From the NCBI GenBank assembly GCA_025360715.1, contig JANYBS010000141.1, forward strand, positions 1 to 34,665: a stretch of 34,665 nt of DNA, read 5' to 3'. Positions within the stretch are counted from its first letter, which is position 1; the number at the start of each line of letters is the position of its first letter. The notes beneath the pieces are model-generated. The model had not been told where the DNA came from and made no database searches. It saw nothing but the letters and a program-made list of their open reading frames with translations. Of the stretch, positions 24,264 to 31,306 are shown piece after piece. This DNA is from Candidatus Eiseniibacteriota bacterium (GTDB taxonomy: Bacteria > Eisenbacteria > RBG-16-71-46). Both the position numbers and the translations under genes were made by a program.

Positions 24264-24692
24264 ATGTACGCGAACCATCGCGAATCGGGATTCTCGCTGA
24301 TCGAACTCGCCATCGTCGTGACGGTGATCGGTCTGATGCTCGCCATGGGCATCCCCGCATACAAGACGCTGTCGCAGAGCCAGTCGCTACGTGGTGCGTC
24401 CCAGAATGTGGCAGGCCAGATCACGCTTGCGCGGGCGCGAGCGATGGCCACAGGCGTCACTCAGACCGTGAACTTCGATGCGTCCACGACGCCGGCGCGC
24501 ATCGTCGTGCTGGGCGGCACCGCGGCACGCACCTGGAAAGTGCCCAAGGGCATCTCGTTCGCGAACGCGAGCTCGTTCAACATGACCAGCGACGGCCGTG
24601 CGTCCACATCGCAGTACATCGTGCTCCAGAACCTGCAGGCCGTCCGCGACACCGTGAGTGTCCAGACGTCCGGCCTGGTGCTGGTGCGCTAG
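24264..24692 (+). CDS. GspH/FimT-type minor pseudopilin
   Basis: The protein has 142 residues. It is a type III prepilin: short leader MYANHRESG, cleavage G9/F10 by PilD-type peptidase, Glu at mature position 5 (FSLIELAIVVTVIGLM) and a 20-residue hydrophobic helix. The remaining 100 residues have the GspH/FimT pattern (NVAGQITLARARAMATG, then alternating beta strands). It is probably part of the initiating or priming complex of a type IV pilus or type II secretion pseudopilus. ATG 24264 is chosen because the leader begins there; GGAG lies 11 bases upstream. It is the first gene of a tight pilin operon. Confidence 0.88.
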   Translation: MYANHRESGFSLIELAIVVTVIGLMLAMGIPAYKTLSQSQSLRGASQNVAGQITLARARAMATGVTQTVNFDASTTPARIVVLGGTAARTWKVPKGISFANASSFNMTSDGRASTSQYIVLQNLQAVRDTVSVQTSGLVLVR

Positions 24693-24701
24693 GAGCCGCC
24701 C

Positions 24702-25118
24702 ATGCGCCAGACCTCAGCTCTGCTCCGTGACTCGCGCGGATTCACGCTCGTAGAGATGCTCATCGCCATCATCGTACTGGCGGTCGGCATCCTCGCGGTG
24801 GGTCGCATGTTCCCCGCCGGAACTCGAGCGCAGGTTCAGGATCGGCTGCTCACCGGCGCGAACAGCTACGCCCAGGAGAAGCTCGAGGACCTCTCGACCA
24901 AATCGTGGGCCGACACCGCGCTCTCGGTCGGCACGCATCCTTCGGCCACGGGCAAGGAGATCCTGGGCAGCACGAACCAGTGGCAGCGCTCCTACGTCGT
25001 CGCTCTTATGGCGGCGCCGATGGACAACTTGAAGAAGGTCGACGTCACCGTCACCTACTCCGGCGCGGGCCTGCAGTCGCAGCGCTCGATCGTCGCCACC
25101 ACCTACCTGAGGAAATGA
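24702..25118 (+). CDS. PilV-type minor pilin
   Basis: The protein has 138 residues. The leader MRQTSALLRDSRG is followed by FTLVEMLIAIIVLAVGILAV, with cleavage G13/F14 and Glu at mature position 5. This N-terminus with GILAVGRM and the following DRLLTGANSYAQEKLEDLST stretch is typical of PilV-type minor pilins. ATG 24702 follows GGAG by six bases, nine bases after the GspH-like gene. The last codons overlap the potential ATGA start of the next gene. It probably sits in the minor-pilin tip complex with the PilW- and PilX-like proteins. Confidence 0.87.
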   Translation: MRQTSALLRDSRGFTLVEMLIAIIVLAVGILAVGRMFPAGTRAQVQDRLLTGANSYAQEKLEDLSTKSWADTALSVGTHPSATGKEILGSTNQWQRSYVVALMAAPMDNLKKVDVTVTYSGAGLQSQRSIVATTYLRK

Positions 25119-25120
25119 CC

Positions 25121-28087
25121 ATGGCCCCGCATACGCACGGTGGGCGCCACGCGCGCTCGGCAGGCTTCACGATGGTCGAGTTGATGATCACGCTTGTGGT
25201 CTTCGCGCTCATCTTCGTCGCGGTCACCGCTGTCTTCCTGAGCGCCAGTCACAGCAAGGACCGCACGTCCGCGAACCTCGAGGCCACGCAGACCGCTCGT
25301 GCGACCCTCGACATGGTCTCGCGCGACCTGCGCAGCGCCGGCTATCAGGCCGATCAGGACTACGCCACGCCGCAACCGGCGATCGCGTACATCGACTCCA
25401 TGGAACTGATCGTCGCTGAGAACCAGATGCCGTACCCGGACGGCGCTACGGGGCCGGTCGCTCCGCTCGCGTATGCCCCGACCCACTCGCCGAATCCGGC
25501 CCCGCTCGTGGGCAATCAGTGGACGCCGCCGATCCGCTACCGCACCGGCGCCGAGCTCATCCGCTATACGCTCGATACCAACAATGATGGCGTGGTCGAC
25601 GCGAATGATCGCGCGACGGTGGCCGGCCTCGATGCCGCTGCGACGCCGAATCCCAACGACTACGTGCTCGTGCGCCAGGTGTACGGCGATTCCACAGGCA
25701 ACGTCGCCAACAGCAATGGCGGCGTGCAGGAGCGCGTGGCGCTGGTGCGCAAGCCGGGCGGCGGCGTGCCGCCGATCTACACCGTCTACATGAAGGGTTC
25801 GTCGACCGCCTACGACTGGTCGAACGGCCCCGTGCCAGCAGCGCAGCTCAACAACATCGAGCGTGTCGTCGTGCAGATCACGGCCGCCAGCGCGCGTCCG
25901 GACACCAAGGGCACATTCGCCCAGACCACGCTGCGGACGACCGTGAGCTCCATGCGCAACAACCCCAACATCGGCGCCACCGAGTACACGGTGAGCGGCT
26001 ATGTATACAACGACCTCAACCAGGACCGGACTTTCAACGGCTCGGACGTGGGTATCAGCAGCGCCACCGTGCAGCTGGGCCCGTCGTTCATCGCGTACAC
26101 GAACTCGGCGGGATACTTCTCGTTCCGCGTGCCGGCCGGCACCTACACGCTCAAGCACACACCGGCGGCCGGCTTCGGATCGTACCTGAGCCCGGATACG
26201 TTCTCGGTCGTCGTCACGAGCGCGAACCTCACTTATTCGTTCGCGGACACCGCCAAGTCCGGCGGCTTCGTGACGGTCAATGTGTGGAATGACCTCAACG
26301 GCAATGGCTCGGTCGATGTCGGCGAAGCCACGCTATCGGATATCGCCGTGAACATCGGCGGCACGGCGGCGTATACCGACGGCTACGGCAACGCGAGGAT
26401 CTTCGCGGCCGTGGGCGCATGGACCGCGATGGCAACCGTTCCGGACTCTATGATCGCCACGACGGCGAATCCGATCTCGGGCTTGATCGCGAATGGCGGC
26501 ACCGCCAGCGGTGCCATCGGCATGCAGGCCTCGCCCAACGGAACGGTGTCGGGCACGGTCTACCAGGACAACAACAAGAACGGCACGCAGGATTCCGGTG
26601 AATCCGGTATCGCCAACGTCTGGGTCGGCGTGACGACCGACGGCGGCGTGACCGTACAGGGCTACGCGTATACCGATGCGACCGGCAACTTCAAGGTCTC
26701 CTGCCCGGCGAACGACCCGCCCAAGACGCAGGCTTACACCGTCTACTGCGTGCCGCCCGCCAACACCTTCCCCACCACGACCACCGCGACCGGCGGAGTC
26801 TGGGTGAAACGGAACAACACCTCGTCGGGCTATTCGTTCGGCATGGCGACCTATCAGGTGATCACCCTCAACGCCAGCCGCGTGCTCAGTCTTGCCGCCT
26901 CCGACTTGATCGAGAATGACGCCGGCAAGAAGGGCAGCCCGCACGAGGACCAGGACCTGATCCTGGGCGCCGATGCCGGCGGCACCGACAACATCTCGGT
27001 CTGGTTCAACCAATACAACGCCAGCCCCCTCTTCAACGCCGCCCCGGACTACACGCGCAATGCGCCGCAGTCCGTGATGGCGATGGCAGTCGACACGCTC
27101 GATACCAGTGCGCCCATCGCGCGACCGGATCTGGTCACCGGCACCAAGTACACCCTGAACGGCAACTTCTTCGTGTGGCTGGACCAGAACACCAGCGGTA
27201 ACGAGGGTTTCTTCCCGCTCACGTACAGCACCGGCCTCAACTACAAGACAGCCGACAACGGCGACGTGCAGGCGGTCAAGACGCTCGACGTGATCGGCGG
27301 CAACATGCCCGACATCATCGTGGGTACCAAGGGCGCGACCGCGCTCACGGGATCGATCGAGATCTGGCAGAACAGCAACTCGGCCTCGCCCACGTTCACG
27401 CGCGCCGAGACTTACACCACCTTCGGCGCCACCTCGACGACGATCGGCGAAGTCACCGGCATGCAGCTCGCGGATCTCGACTCGGACGGCCTCAAGGACC
27501 TTATCGTGAGCACGCGCACCGGCGACTACTCGGGGCAAGTGATCTTCTTCAAGAACATGGGCAAGGCTGCGGTGGGCCAGCGCTTCTCGTACAGGTTCGC
27601 GCTGTCGTTCACGACCAACACGCCCACGTGTCTTGCCACCACGGACGTGGACCAGGACGGCGCCTCCGACGTGATCATCGGTACGAGGAACAGCACGTCG
27701 GGCGGCAAGATCATGTACCTGCGCAACTACGGCGCGTGGACGTGGTCGCTCGTGAAGGTGGTCACGCCCCCGGGCCTGGTCATGTCCATCGCCACCGCCG
27801 ACATGGGCGGCACGACTGGCGTGAATGACCTCATCGTGGGCTGGCGCGCCACGACGTCGGGCTACGGCGGCGGCGTGCTCATCTACTACCTGGACGTGCA
27901 CGGCATTCCCGACAATGGCGTCGATCCCTCCGGCGGTTCGATCGTCAACATGGTACCGGCCATCGCCAACGCGAACTTCAACTACGGCTCTTATCCGACC
28001 GGAGCTGCGACCCCGTATCTCACCGATCTCGCGGTCGGCGTGAAGGCGAGTGCAACGACCGGCTCGCTCGTCATCTTCATCCGGTAG
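25121..28087 (+). CDS. PilW-type minor pilin fused to SdrD-B-like modules and a seven-repeat FG-GAP propeller
   Basis: The protein has 988 residues, against about 200-350 for ordinary PilW. The prepilin leader ends SAG/FTMVELMITLVVFALIF (cleavage G15/F16, Glu at mature position 5). Residues 30-285 are PilW-like (ATLDMVSRDLRSAGYQAD). Three SdrD-B/Cna-B-like modules follow from about 288, 383 and 473, each with the calcium-loop pattern (VYNDLNQDRTFNGSD, VWNDLNGNGSVDVGE, VYQDNNKNGTQDSGE). From about 585 to the end are seven FG-GAP/VCBS-like repeats with DLDSDGLKDLIVST and DVDQDGASDVIIGT loops. No gap or stop breaks the frame. ATG 25121 follows GAGG by eight bases; ATG 25115, overlapping the PilV stop, is the alternative. 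The module order suggests a calcium-dependent tip adhesin in the place usually held by PilY1. Confidence 0.9.
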   Translation: MAPHTHGGRHARSAGFTMVELMITLVVFALIFVAVTAVFLSASHSKDRTSANLEATQTARATLDMVSRDLRSAGYQADQDYATPQPAIAYIDSMELIVAENQMPYPDGATGPVAPLAYAPTHSPNPAPLVGNQWTPPIRYRTGAELIRYTLDTNNDGVVDANDRATVAGLDAAATPNPNDYVLVRQVYGDSTGNVANSNGGVQERVALVRKPGGGVPPIYTVYMKGSSTAYDWSNGPVPAAQLNNIERVVVQITAASARPDTKGTFAQTTLRTTVSSMRNNPNIGATEYTVSGYVYNDLNQDRTFNGSDVGISSATVQLGPSFIAYTNSAGYFSFRVPAGTYTLKHTPAAGFGSYLSPDTFSVVVTSANLTYSFADTAKSGGFVTVNVWNDLNGNGSVDVGEATLSDIAVNIGGTAAYTDGYGNARIFAAVGAWTAMATVPDSMIATTANPISGLIANGGTASGAIGMQASPNGTVSGTVYQDNNKNGTQDSGESGIANVWVGVTTDGGVTVQGYAYTDATGNFKVSCPANDPPKTQAYTVYCVPPANTFPTTTTATGGVWVKRNNTSSGYSFGMATYQVITLNASRVLSLAASDLIENDAGKKGSPHEDQDLILGADAGGTDNISVWFNQYNASPLFNAAPDYTRNAPQSVMAMAVDTLDTSAPIARPDLVTGTKYTLNGNFFVWLDQNTSGNEGFFPLTYSTGLNYKTADNGDVQAVKTLDVIGGNMPDIIVGTKGATALTGSIEIWQNSNSASPTFTRAETYTTFGATSTTIGEVTGMQLADLDSDGLKDLIVSTRTGDYSGQVIFFKNMGKAAVGQRFSYRFALSFTTNTPTCLATTDVDQDGASDVIIGTRNSTSGGKIMYLRNYGAWTWSLVKVVTPPGLVMSIATADMGGTTGVNDLIVGWRATTSGYGGGVLIYYLDVHGIPDNGVDPSGGSIVNMVPAIANANFNYGSYPTGAATPYLTDLAVGVKASATTGSLVIFIR

Positions 28088-28103: not shown

Positions 28104-29327
28104 ATGCGCATCCACTTTCGGACCATCCAGAATGAGCGCGGCATGGCGCTGGTGATCGCCATGCTGGTCCTGCTCGTGATCACGCTGCTCGGGATCGTGC
28201 TCATGGCCAGCGTCGCGGTGAACCGCCGCGTCGCGGGCTCCGACGTGATGGTGCGCAAGGCGCTCGATTCGGCCGAAGCGGGAATCGCCGAGGCCACGTC
28301 ACGCCTGCGCAATGGCGATGCGCCCATGCCCACGAGCAATCCTCGGGCAGTCTCACAGATCTATCTGGCGGCCTCCGGCAGCATTCCGGCCGTGGGCGTT
28401 GACACCACGGCCATGGCGACCAGCCAGCCCAACGGCAGCTGGCTTACGTACTCGGATGCCACCAAGAACTCGAACGTGCTCACGATCCGCTTCAAGACCG
28501 ACGCGGCGCGCACGGTGATCTATCGCTACGACCCCACGAAGACCCCTTCGATCCAGACCAGCACGGGCTCGTATATCTACGAGATCACTTCGACCGGCCG
28601 GGCCGGCACCGCCAAGCGCACGGTGGTTGCCGATGTGATCGCGACGCCGGTGCAGGTGCTCGCGAAGGCGGCGATGACTGCGGGCTTCGACGTGAGCTTT
28701 GTCGGCAACGCGGTGGTCTGCGGCTACAATCACTCGCTCAGTACGCCAGTCGGCACAGGCGCCAGCGGCCGTGGATCCGCGCCCGACTGCGTGCCCTACG
28801 AGACCGTGGGCGGCGATCTTCCCGCGGCGTGGTCCACCGGCACGATCTCGGGAGGCGGAGCGTCTGGAACGACCGGCTCCCCCACGGCCAACATGCCCAA
28901 CCAGAGCGGATTCTACACCGGTCCCTGGCAGATGCTCGGCATGACGCAGTCGCAGTTCCAGTCCTACGTGGGCGCGCCGGTCGCGTCGATCTCGAACCTG
29001 AACGGCATCAACTACGTGGACAACGATGCGATCATGGGCAACCAGTCCAGCAGCGTCTCGCTCCACAGCGTGACCGGCGAGGGCCTGCTTTACGTGGACG
29101 GCGACGCCACGATGAACGCCGGCTTCACCTACACCGGCCTTGTGTACATCGAGGGCGACCTCAAGCTCAATGGTCAGGCGTGGATCCTGGGCGGCATGGT
29201 CGTGCGCGGTAAGACCACCATCAAGATGAACGGCGGCGCCACGATCCTGTACAGCAGCGACGCCATCTCGCAGAAGTTGGCGCAATATGGCGGGTCGTAC
29301 ACGACGCTCGCGTGGCGCGAGAACTGA
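28104..29327 (+). CDS. PilX-like pilus assembly protein with beta-helical C-terminal domain
   Basis: The protein has 407 residues. The N-terminus MRIHFRTIQNERG/MALVIAML has the PilX_N pattern, with prepilin cleavage at G13 and no Glu at mature position 5, as in GspK-type tip subunits. Residues 210-325 are low-complexity, rich in Gly, Ser and Thr, and hold two cysteines (VVCGYNH and APDCVPYE) that could form a disulfide. Residues 325-390 form a regular series of short strands (GLLYVDGDATM, GLVYIEGDLKL, GGMVVRGKTTI, GGATILYSS) like the bactofilin-type beta helix found in related PilX C-termini. ATG 28104 lies eight bases after an AAGGG. It is the last gene of the operon, followed by a strong terminator. 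Confidence 0.85.
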   Translation: MRIHFRTIQNERGMALVIAMLVLLVITLLGIVLMASVAVNRRVAGSDVMVRKALDSAEAGIAEATSRLRNGDAPMPTSNPRAVSQIYLAASGSIPAVGVDTTAMATSQPNGSWLTYSDATKNSNVLTIRFKTDAARTVIYRYDPTKTPSIQTSTGSYIYEITSTGRAGTAKRTVVADVIATPVQVLAKAAMTAGFDVSFVGNAVVCGYNHSLSTPVGTGASGRGSAPDCVPYETVGGDLPAAWSTGTISGGGASGTTGSPTANMPNQSGFYTGPWQMLGMTQSQFQSYVGAPVASISNLNGINYVDNDAIMGNQSSSVSLHSVTGEGLLYVDGDATMNAGFTYTGLVYIEGDLKLNGQAWILGGMVVRGKTTIKMNGGATILYSSDAISQKLAQYGGSYTTLAWREN

Positions 29328-29606: not shown

Positions 29607-29657
29607 ATGCACGACACCTGCAACTTGACGATCCTTCGCGCAGGAGACGTCCGTTGA
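29607..29657 (+). promoter_or_regulatory. 16-codon leader frame ending at the TTG start of the lamin-tail gene
   Basis: ATG 29607 reads MHDTCNLTILRAGDVR and stops at TGA 29655-29657, which overlaps the TTG start (TTGA). It has no Shine-Dalgarno. The CCTGC at 29617-29621 can pair with GCAGG at 29640-29644, overlapping the AGGAG ribosome site, and CTCCTCCTC at 29598 could also mask it. Coupling or masking is possible but unproven. Confidence 0.25.
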
Positions 29658-31306
29658 ACACCTCCGGCAATGCGGTGCAACGAGTCTGTGTATGCGCCTG
29701 CATCCTCATCGCGTCGACAGCGAATAGCGCCAGTTCCCACACCATCTCGATCGATGCGGACGGCCGGGACTGGCGTGGGGTGACGTCCGCCAGTGACAAC
29801 CAGGGCCGCATCGCCCGTGACCACAGCCGCGGGGGCGAGTACGTGTGGCGGGATTCGCCCGGCGATCAACGCCCCTCTTGGCCCGCACGCCCGCACGACC
29901 TGCGCGAACTGCGCCTGACCGGCGATGCCGACCGTCTGTATATCGAAGCCGTCTTCGCCGGCCCGGTCTCCGTTGCGGGCGACAGCACGCTCCAGCTGCA
30001 ACTCGCCATCGACACCGACCGCTTCACCGGATCGGGCGGGTCGGCCTTCGTGGCTGGCGCCGCGACCCAGGTCGCCGCCAACGCGGATTACGAATACCTC
30101 CTGCAGACGCGCTTCGGTTCGGGCCAACCGCCCGTGCTGCGCGATGCGAACGGCGTGCCGACCTCCACTGTGGTGCAGGCGGCGCTCTCTTCCGCCGGAG
30201 TGCTCGAGTGCGCGATCCCGTGGACCGCGTTCGGCTCGGCGAATCCGCTCTTCGATCCCCTGCGGTTCACTGCCGCCGTGTTCCTGAGCGATGCGGCGGA
30301 TCGGGCACTGGCCGCGGCCGATACCATCGCCAGCCGCGCGGCCGACGTCGTGACCCAGAACGGCGCGCCCGGGGCCACTGGCACCACCGCAGGCGAAGTC
30401 GCCGATGGCATCGTGAACTATTCCTTCGATATCTATTTCGATGTGCACGGTGATGCGGTCGCCCCGGTGGAGATCAGCGAGATCTATTTCGGCGGCGGCG
30501 TGAAGCAGCAGTGGATCGAGGTCGTGAATGCCTCCCAGGACGTGGTGCCGCTTGGCACCTGGTCCATCGGCGATGCCGAGACGCCCAACGACGGCGAAGC
30601 CATGGCCCATTTCCCCAACGTGTTCCTCTCGCCCGGCGTGAACTTCGTCGTCGCGCGCAACGGTCTCACGTTCTTCCAGGACCACGCGTTCCGCGCGAAC
30701 GCGGAGTGCGAGAACGTTGACGGCGCCACGCCCGACATGTTGCCGTTCGCGCAATGGGCCGCGACCACACAGTTCAACATCCCCAACGCAGGCGACCAGG
30801 TGCTGCTCCTGGACCGCGCGAACACCATCGTCGATGTGGTCACGTTCAAGAACAGCTCATACCCGGGCGTCACGCCGCACCCCGGCACACCCGCGTTTCA
30901 CTCGCTCGAGCGCACGAATGTGGATGTCGACACCGACGACTGTGCGCTCGACTTCATGGACGAGGCCGCGCCCAACCCGGGCACGACGTCGATTCCCACA
31001 AGTCGCGTGGGGGACGCAACGCAGACCCGCTTGCGATGGTCGCTGCCGGCGCCGAACCCGGCGCGGGGTCGCGTGAGCCTGACGCTGCACACGAGCCAGC
31101 CCGGCCCCGTCCGCATCGAAGTGCTCGATGTGAGCGGCCGCCGGGTGTGCGGATTGCTCGAGAACGCTGCGGCTGCCGCAGGCGATCTGGGCGTGGAATG
31201 GAACGGCCGCGACGCACGTGGAGCGAACGTCACGGCCGGGATCTACCTGGTACGCGCCACCACGAATGAGGGCATTCGGCAGATCCGCGTGGTGTGGCTG
31301 CGCTAG
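29654..31306 (+). CDS. Exported protein with lamin-tail domain and FlgD-like C-terminal module, TTG start
   Basis: The protein has 550 residues from TTG 29654, seven bases after AGGAG. No ATG fits the signal peptide (NTSGNAVQRVCVCACILIAS, cleavage near ANSASS). The first 240 residues contain ISIDADGRDWRG, LTGDADRLYIEAVF and LQLAIDTDRF, like CBM9/DOMON-type sugar-binding beta sandwiches. From about 271 to 410 follows a lamin-tail domain (ISEIYFGG, QQWIEVVNASQDVVPLGTW, SPGVNFVVARNG, GDQVLLLDRANTIVDVVTF). The final 90 residues are a FlgD-Ig-like module (PNPARGRVSLTLH, VLDVSGRRV, VEWNGRDARG, GIYLVRATT, RVVWLR). It probably acts on the cell surface or outside. It stands behind the pilin-operon terminator, so it is expressed separately. 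Confidence 0.87.
   Translation: MNTSGNAVQRVCVCACILIASTANSASSHTISIDADGRDWRGVTSASDNQGRIARDHSRGGEYVWRDSPGDQRPSWPARPHDLRELRLTGDADRLYIEAVFAGPVSVAGDSTLQLQLAIDTDRFTGSGGSAFVAGAATQVAANADYEYLLQTRFGSGQPPVLRDANGVPTSTVVQAALSSAGVLECAIPWTAFGSANPLFDPLRFTAAVFLSDAADRALAAADTIASRAADVVTQNGAPGATGTTAGEVADGIVNYSFDIYFDVHGDAVAPVEISEIYFGGGVKQQWIEVVNASQDVVPLGTWSIGDAETPNDGEAMAHFPNVFLSPGVNFVVARNGLTFFQDHAFRANAECENVDGATPDMLPFAQWAATTQFNIPNAGDQVLLLDRANTIVDVVTFKNSSYPGVTPHPGTPAFHSLERTNVDVDTDDCALDFMDEAAPNPGTTSIPTSRVGDATQTRLRWSLPAPNPARGRVSLTLHTSQPGPVRIEVLDVSGRRVCGLLENAAAAAGDLGVEWNGRDARGANVTAGIYLVRATTNEGIRQIRVVWLR

Follow-up and report, generated by a model that had tools for sequence, protein, structure and literature searches.

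A modular minor pilin with a predicted stalked FG-GAP/integrin-like head in Candidatus Eiseniibacteriota

In most bacteria, binding by the pilus depends on a separate protein at the tip, and accounts of tip binding in diderm bacteria centre mostly on PilY1. In the model of the M. xanthus pilus, PilX tops the pilins, PilW lies below it and PilY1 beyond (PMC7541494). In a minor-pilin tip complex, the capping subunit is recognised by the absence of Glu5 (PMC10191384). Modular pilins, which carry grafted effector domains, comprise more than 1,200 proteins in 264 architectures (Raynaud et al. 2021, PMC8179133), and the characterised examples PilB and PilC of S. sanguinis adhere through the domains grafted onto them (PMC8179133, PMC10191384).

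Here we describe a modular pilin gene in a window of 34,665 nucleotides, the whole stretch of DNA that was analysed, from a Candidatus Eiseniibacteriota assembly of 4.29 Mb (253 contigs, 96% complete). The original prediction had read the gene as a pilin joined to SdrD-B-like modules and an FG-GAP propeller, and had taken this architecture to be undescribed. Modular pilins as such are a described class (PMC8179133), and the claim stands for the combination only: in the searchable literature, Dataset S1 of PMC8179133 aside, we found no paper joining a prepilin or minor pilin with FG-GAP repeats. As far as this literature goes, an FG-GAP head on an SdrD-B stalk carried by a pilin appears to be undescribed.

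The minor-pilin cassette

The modular pilin is encoded by the third gene of a cassette with the conserved order FimT–PilV–modular pilin–PilX; below we call it the fusion gene. The cassette consists of the following genes.

24264..24692, + strand: FimT/GspH-like minor prepilin, 142 aa, first gene of the cassette (N_methyl over cut-off)
24702..25118, + strand: PilV-like minor prepilin, 138 aa (N_methyl over cut-off)
25121..28087, + strand: modular minor pilin in the PilW position, 988 aa (single frame, full-length orthologs)
28104..29327, + strand: PilX-like minor pilin, 407 aa (PilX_N over cut-off)

The more specific matches of the two small prepilins, TIGR01708 for the FimT/GspH-like protein (E 9e-10) and TIGR02523 PilV for the PilV-like one (E 1e-9), lay below cut-off. 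When the relatives were compared, almost all of them had a FimT ortholog upstream of the fusion, a PilV ortholog adjoined every fusion gene compared, and a PilX ortholog lay directly downstream of every fusion whose contig reaches that far. The PilX-like pilin is without Glu5 (G|MALVI) and, by analogy with described tip complexes, is expected to be the tip-capping subunit. In addition, the genome encodes PilM and a single prepilin peptidase, and T2SSE was matched over cut-off ten times.

The same genome holds a second FimT–PilV–PilW–PilX cassette on contig C235 (L054:7395-10866), with an ordinary 289-aa PilW, a 550-aa PilX with DUF4900 and no PilY1 after it. Two fusion cassettes were seen in tandem in two relatives (L033, G002:C56; L040, G017:C548); the cassette therefore undergoes duplication and divergence inside single genomes. 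Directly after PilX in the window, positions 29624-31306 (+ strand) encode a secreted-type protein with a lamin tail domain and an FlgD Ig-like C-terminus; among the loci compared, clear orthologs of it follow the cassette solely in G005 and G002.

The cassette could also be read as part of a T2SS-like pseudopilus, in which the propeller would recognise or hold secreted substrates. Its gene order is that of GspH/I/J/K, weak matches to the GspH, GspI, GspJ and GspK models were obtained, and a secreted-type LTD/FlgD_ig protein is encoded directly downstream. None of these Gsp models reached its cut-off, however, whereas PilX_N did; PilM is present, and sister cassettes in congeners include PilY1, a component specific to type IV pili. 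We therefore consider a pseudopilus improbable.

Domain plan of the modular pilin

The fusion gene starts with the ATG at 25121, 2 bases past the PilV stop, and its own stop ends at 28087. The protein begins with a prepilin N-terminus and a pilin module; three SdrD-B-like modules follow, and seven FG-GAP repeats complete it. Pfam found N_methyl at residues 12-35, SdrD_B in three stretches and FG-GAP_3 in two stretches, each over cut-off. It had been predicted that three stalk modules link the propeller to a minor pilin, and this plan was borne out by the Pfam domains and by the presence of SdrD_B and FG-GAP_3 in 15/15 aligned orthologs. The N-terminal part has the following features.

25121..25225, + strand: prepilin leader, residues 1-35 (N_methyl and TIGR02532 over cut-off)
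25163..25975, + strand: pilin module, residues 15-285 (identity; homology to related modular pilins)
25574..25609, + strand: EF-hand/dockerin-like loop D152-D163 in the pilin module (conservation; Dockerin_1 match in L066)

The protein has the sequence features of a type IV (minor) pilin, namely a class III leader with cleavage at G15|F16 and a hydrophobic alpha1N with Glu5 (E20); G15, F16 and E20 are invariant in 15 orthologs. The following module is the best conserved segment after the leader (mean identity of 59% over residues 46-284), and it is homologous to those of related modular pilins (HHalign E 5e-24 and 6e-17). The term 'PilW region' used in the original prediction is apt for the position and size of the gene, but neither the Pfam nor the NCBIfam scan matched a PilW family model in the modular pilin. 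Its NCBIfam prepilin matches, to other minor prepilins, were restricted to the N-terminal ~70 residues, and TIGR02599 (Verru_Chthon cassette protein C) gave 30.3 bits against a cut-off of 256.5. The loop of the pilin module follows the consensus TLDxNNDGxVDxxD (residues 150-163) and is retained in 15/15 orthologs with minor substitutions; in one ortholog (L066) a Dockerin_1 match with an E-value of 0.0016 falls on it.

The stalk is made up of three modules.

25976..26254, + strand: SdrD-B-like module 1, residues 286-378 (Pfam SdrD_B stretches; loop comparison)
26255..26530, + strand: SdrD-B-like module 2, residues 379-470 (Pfam SdrD_B; profile match to solved SdrD structures)
26531..26836, + strand: SdrD-B-like module 3, residues 471-572 (best Pfam SdrD_B stretch, 478-556)

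It combines SdrD_B domains with Ca-type loops, as SdrD B repeats do, and its profile matched solved SdrD structures (SdrD chain 10ps_A, E 7e-13). Ca-type loops were seen in module 2 (DLNGNGSVDVGE at 391) and module 3 (DNNKNGTQDSGE at 483); the loop of module 1 (at 298) is degenerate in this copy and DxNxNxxxDxGE-like in the orthologs.

The C-terminal 416 residues form the head.

26837..28084, + strand: seven-repeat FG-GAP/integrin-like beta-propeller, residues 573-988 (FG-GAP_3, repeats, AF2, Foldseek)
27473..27499, + strand: integrin-type Ca2+ motif DLDSDGLKD, residues 785-793, in repeat 4 (motif conservation)
27644..27670, + strand: integrin-type Ca2+ motif DVDQDGASD, residues 842-850, in repeat 5 (motif conservation)

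Seven FG-GAP repeats had been predicted, and this number was confirmed. The repeats, each of ~60 aa, are anchored at D612, D670, D731, D793, D850, D903 and D969 with a spacing of 53-66 residues, and comparison of the ortholog profile with itself by HHalign gave repeats offset by ~62 residues (E 8e-22). When residues 573-988 were modelled alone with AF2, the predicted structure was nearly all beta, with strands in repeated sets (pLDDT 63.5, pTM 0.75). The fold modelled for the C-terminal repeats is thus propeller-like, at a moderate level of confidence. The model of the whole protein, built from two sequences, had a pLDDT of about 28 and gave no usable relative placement of the modules.

A Foldseek search against the PDB placed integrin alpha-V first (E 2.7e-8), and integrin alpha-5, other integrins, BBSome propellers and CRTAC1 were among the best matches. 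The TM-scores to integrins were 0.4-0.6 and the rmsd was high, so the comparison speaks more for this kind of fold than for an exact match. Sequence-profile searches led to the same top families, with E-values of 4e-6 for integrin alpha-V and 6e-6 for CRTAC1. The profile search also returned weak matches to YesX (E 0.034) and aldos-2-ulose dehydratase (E 0.78), and on these the head might be read as a pilus-borne enzyme with an FG-GAP-like propeller, such as a polysaccharide lyase or a dehydratase. The integrin alpha and CRTAC1 propellers are far better matches both by sequence and by fold, however, and no catalytic residues were identified, so that an enzyme is a very improbable reading.

In repeat 4, D785, D789 and D793 are invariant in 15 orthologs, as are D846 and D850 in repeat 5. 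Since Ca-type loops occur in the pilin module, the stalk and the propeller, the protein may bind Ca2+, and on its conserved motifs the propeller itself probably does so.

Orthologs, head exchange and PilY1

The modular pilin is present in 15/20 genomes of its GTDB family, some with 2-3 copies, at identities of mostly 40-65%, and a profile search across the phylum added G040 and G044 from another family of the same class. Each of the 15 aligned members matched N_methyl, SdrD_B and FG-GAP_3. No relatives were found when viral contigs were searched with the ortholog profile. A search of genome contigs by exact short peptides returned one relative, an Eisenbacteria MAG; distant copies beyond the phylum could escape this kind of search.

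Most copies run uninterrupted from the pilin to the last repeat; those of G018, G019, G015 and G017 are split, have a single stop or are cut off by a contig edge. Frame changes break the fusion genes of L044 (G019), L043 (G018) and L045 (G015), the G018 break lying near an ambiguous base (N) and the G015 break just before the C-terminus, from where the frame runs into PilX. These interruptions are probably assembly errors.

For a close ortholog pair, dN/dS was 0.13 in the pilin, 0.15 in the stalk and 0.12 in the propeller, and all three segments are under purifying selection. Codon-position GC is alike in the three segments. A chimeric, frameshifted or misassembled gene, in which a pilin has been fused with a secreted propeller protein that has nothing to do with it, could be suspected from the MAG-type assembly in 253 contigs and from the G018 and G019 orthologs, which are split into two frames. 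But the same join lies in an open frame in independent genomes, dN/dS stays at 0.12-0.15 throughout, and the G018 split is close to an N in the assembly; orthologs and dN/dS together led us to reject this reading, which we regard as hardly conceivable. Accordingly, 25121-28087 is one real open frame with correct coordinates, as had been proposed, and there is neither a frameshift nor an assembly join between residues 286 and 585.

In families f8 and f11 we found a shorter pilin of ~735 aa with the same propeller and no SdrD-B modules. Compared by HHalign, both parts of the short form are homologous to the modular pilin, the pilin module with E 5e-24 and the propeller with E 5e-44. All eight short-form propeller pilins examined (L055-L062) end in a conserved tail, (V/I)Y(L/M)NPYxxxxxP, past the last blade, which the long form lacks. 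G036 (L064:2324-4567) has yet another, third type of stalk: there, a prepilin-like start, Big_1/Invasin_D3 domains and FG-GAP repeats lie in one frame. In families f3, f4 and f6 (L067-L073), the prepilin cassette position is taken by pilins of ~940 aa that contain FN3 repeats and, at the C-terminus, a domain of the 3-keto-disaccharide-hydrolase/LamG-type lectin fold. The pilin module of L068, the one FN3-lectin pilin compared, is homologous to that of the modular pilin (E 6e-17). Stalk and head are thus swapped at the same pilin position in relatives, and the stalk is dispensable, because related pilins carry the propeller without a stalk or with another one.

In trees of the pilin module and of the propeller alike, the split between long and short forms had full support. 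Inside the long form, the pilin tree groups the G040 and G044 copies with an f1 copy, which hints that the long form has moved horizontally as a unit. These two copies (L065, L066; family f11) group with f1 in both trees, and relatives in their genera carry the short form, which makes horizontal transfer probable.

The original prediction had stated that the operon contains no pilY1. This was right, and none was found elsewhere in the 96%-complete assembly either, with the Pfam model or with a full-length congener protein as query. Both searches were positive in the congeners G002, G003 and G004, and also in G007 and G014, so they work in this lineage. The congener cassettes have the order FimT–PilV–short PilW–PilX–PilY1, with a vWA-PilY1 in G003. 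A pilY1 in the same gene neighbourhood therefore does exist in the lineage, in a parallel cassette whose genes stand in the same order, but there is none in this genome.

PilY1 was found in 5/20 genomes of the family, and two of these five (G002 and G014) also carry the fusion, with the two cassette types on different contigs. Exclusion between fusion and PilY1 is suggestive only: Fisher's test gave p = 0.07 within the family and p = 0.39 across the phylum, neither of them significant. Strict exclusion is not supported. Since both kinds occur together in two relatives, there is no strict replacement of PilY1, and the fusion need not be a PilY1 substitute. The possibility that the head is itself a fused PilY1 was ruled out: the modular pilin had no match to PF05567 (the PilC/PilY1 propeller), and congener PilY1 showed no similarity to the propeller profile (E 0.27). 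Lacking detectable sequence similarity to the PilY1 propeller, the head is an analogue of PilY1 and not a fused PilY1.

An analogue of PilY1 might act mainly as a cap, with stalk and propeller starting assembly and stopping retraction at the secretin and with no specific ligand. In M. xanthus, PilY1 and the minor pilins do both of these jobs (PMC7541494), and most fusion genomes are without PilY1, so that its assembly job may need another doer. Against a cap, two genomes have both fusion and PilY1, the second cassette of this same genome has neither propeller nor PilY1, which means that a bulky cap is not needed by every cassette, and the exchange of heads for lectin-fold domains suggests a binding task. 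We consider a cap role unlikely.

Proposed role and comparison with known systems

It seems likely that the protein is a modular type IV pilus minor pilin that displays a stalked FG-GAP/integrin-like head at the tip for binding. Against a binding head, FG-GAP propellers are common in other large proteins of these genomes, and such propellers are not always adhesins. In favour of display at the tip, a cassette with a Glu5-lacking PilX resembles the tip complexes described (PMC10191384, PMC7541494). We rank tip display for binding as most likely, followed by the priming or cork role, with the pseudopilus role less likely.

For the modular pilin we infer tip incorporation, Ca2+ binding and adhesion, as follows. 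Prepilin peptidase would cut the class III leader, and the pilin module would join the FimT/PilV/PilX minor-pilin complex, which would start the filament and stay at its tip. The three SdrD-B-like modules and the seven-bladed propeller would be carried outside as a binding head. By analogy with M. xanthus, a place directly beneath the tip would be expected for the modular pilin, and the stalk would lift the propeller past PilX. Ca2+ at the loops of the pilin module, stalk and propeller may stiffen or switch the head.

More tentatively, one minor-pilin position may hold an exchangeable tip cartridge across the class and take over the job of PilY1 in many genomes, a wider reading that we hold to be possible and somewhat less probable than its opposite. 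The heads of such a cartridge would be a stalked propeller, an unstalked one, a propeller on Invasin-type domains or an FN3-lectin. If this reading is true, the type IVa pili of diderm bacteria could be primed, and could adhere, independently of PilY1. It seems that, across a class of uncultured bacteria, binding heads are grafted onto a minor pilin, either in place of PilY1 or alongside it, and the occurrence of both designs in the same genus and gene order offers a natural comparison between tip parts for assembly and for binding. An FG-GAP/integrin-like propeller with a swappable stalk also extends the known pilin modules.

Of the described systems, PilB (vWA) and PilC (lectin) of S. sanguinis are alike in carrying a binding domain foreign to type IV pili on a minor pilin, with predicted display at the tip (PMC8179133, PMC9934059). 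Here, in contrast, the head, a seven-bladed FG-GAP propeller standing on a three-module SdrD-B stalk, has about twice the size and comes from a diderm-type candidate phylum. The four-gene Verru_Chthon cassette (TIGR02596, TIGR02599, TIGR02600) is likewise a minor prepilin cassette, with weak matches to its proteins A, C and D, although all of these fall far short of cut-off and do not extend past the prepilin N-terminus.

The stalk resembles the B repeats of S. aureus SdrD in its SdrD_B matches over cut-off, its DxNxNGxxDxGE Ca loops and its place between anchor and head; it differs in being borne by a pilin, not by a wall-anchored protein, and its first loop is degenerate in this copy. The head shares seven FG-GAP repeats and DxDxDGxxD loops with the integrin alpha propeller, its best profile and fold match in the PDB, although identity in the structure alignments is about 12% and two canonical Ca loops are present here. 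Finally, PilC/PilY1 (PF05567) is similarly a large propeller protein with Ca2+-type loops that is encoded with minor pilins, in congeners in the same cassette layout. PilY1 is a separate, non-pilin protein with a propeller of another family, whereas here the propeller is covalently part of the pilin.
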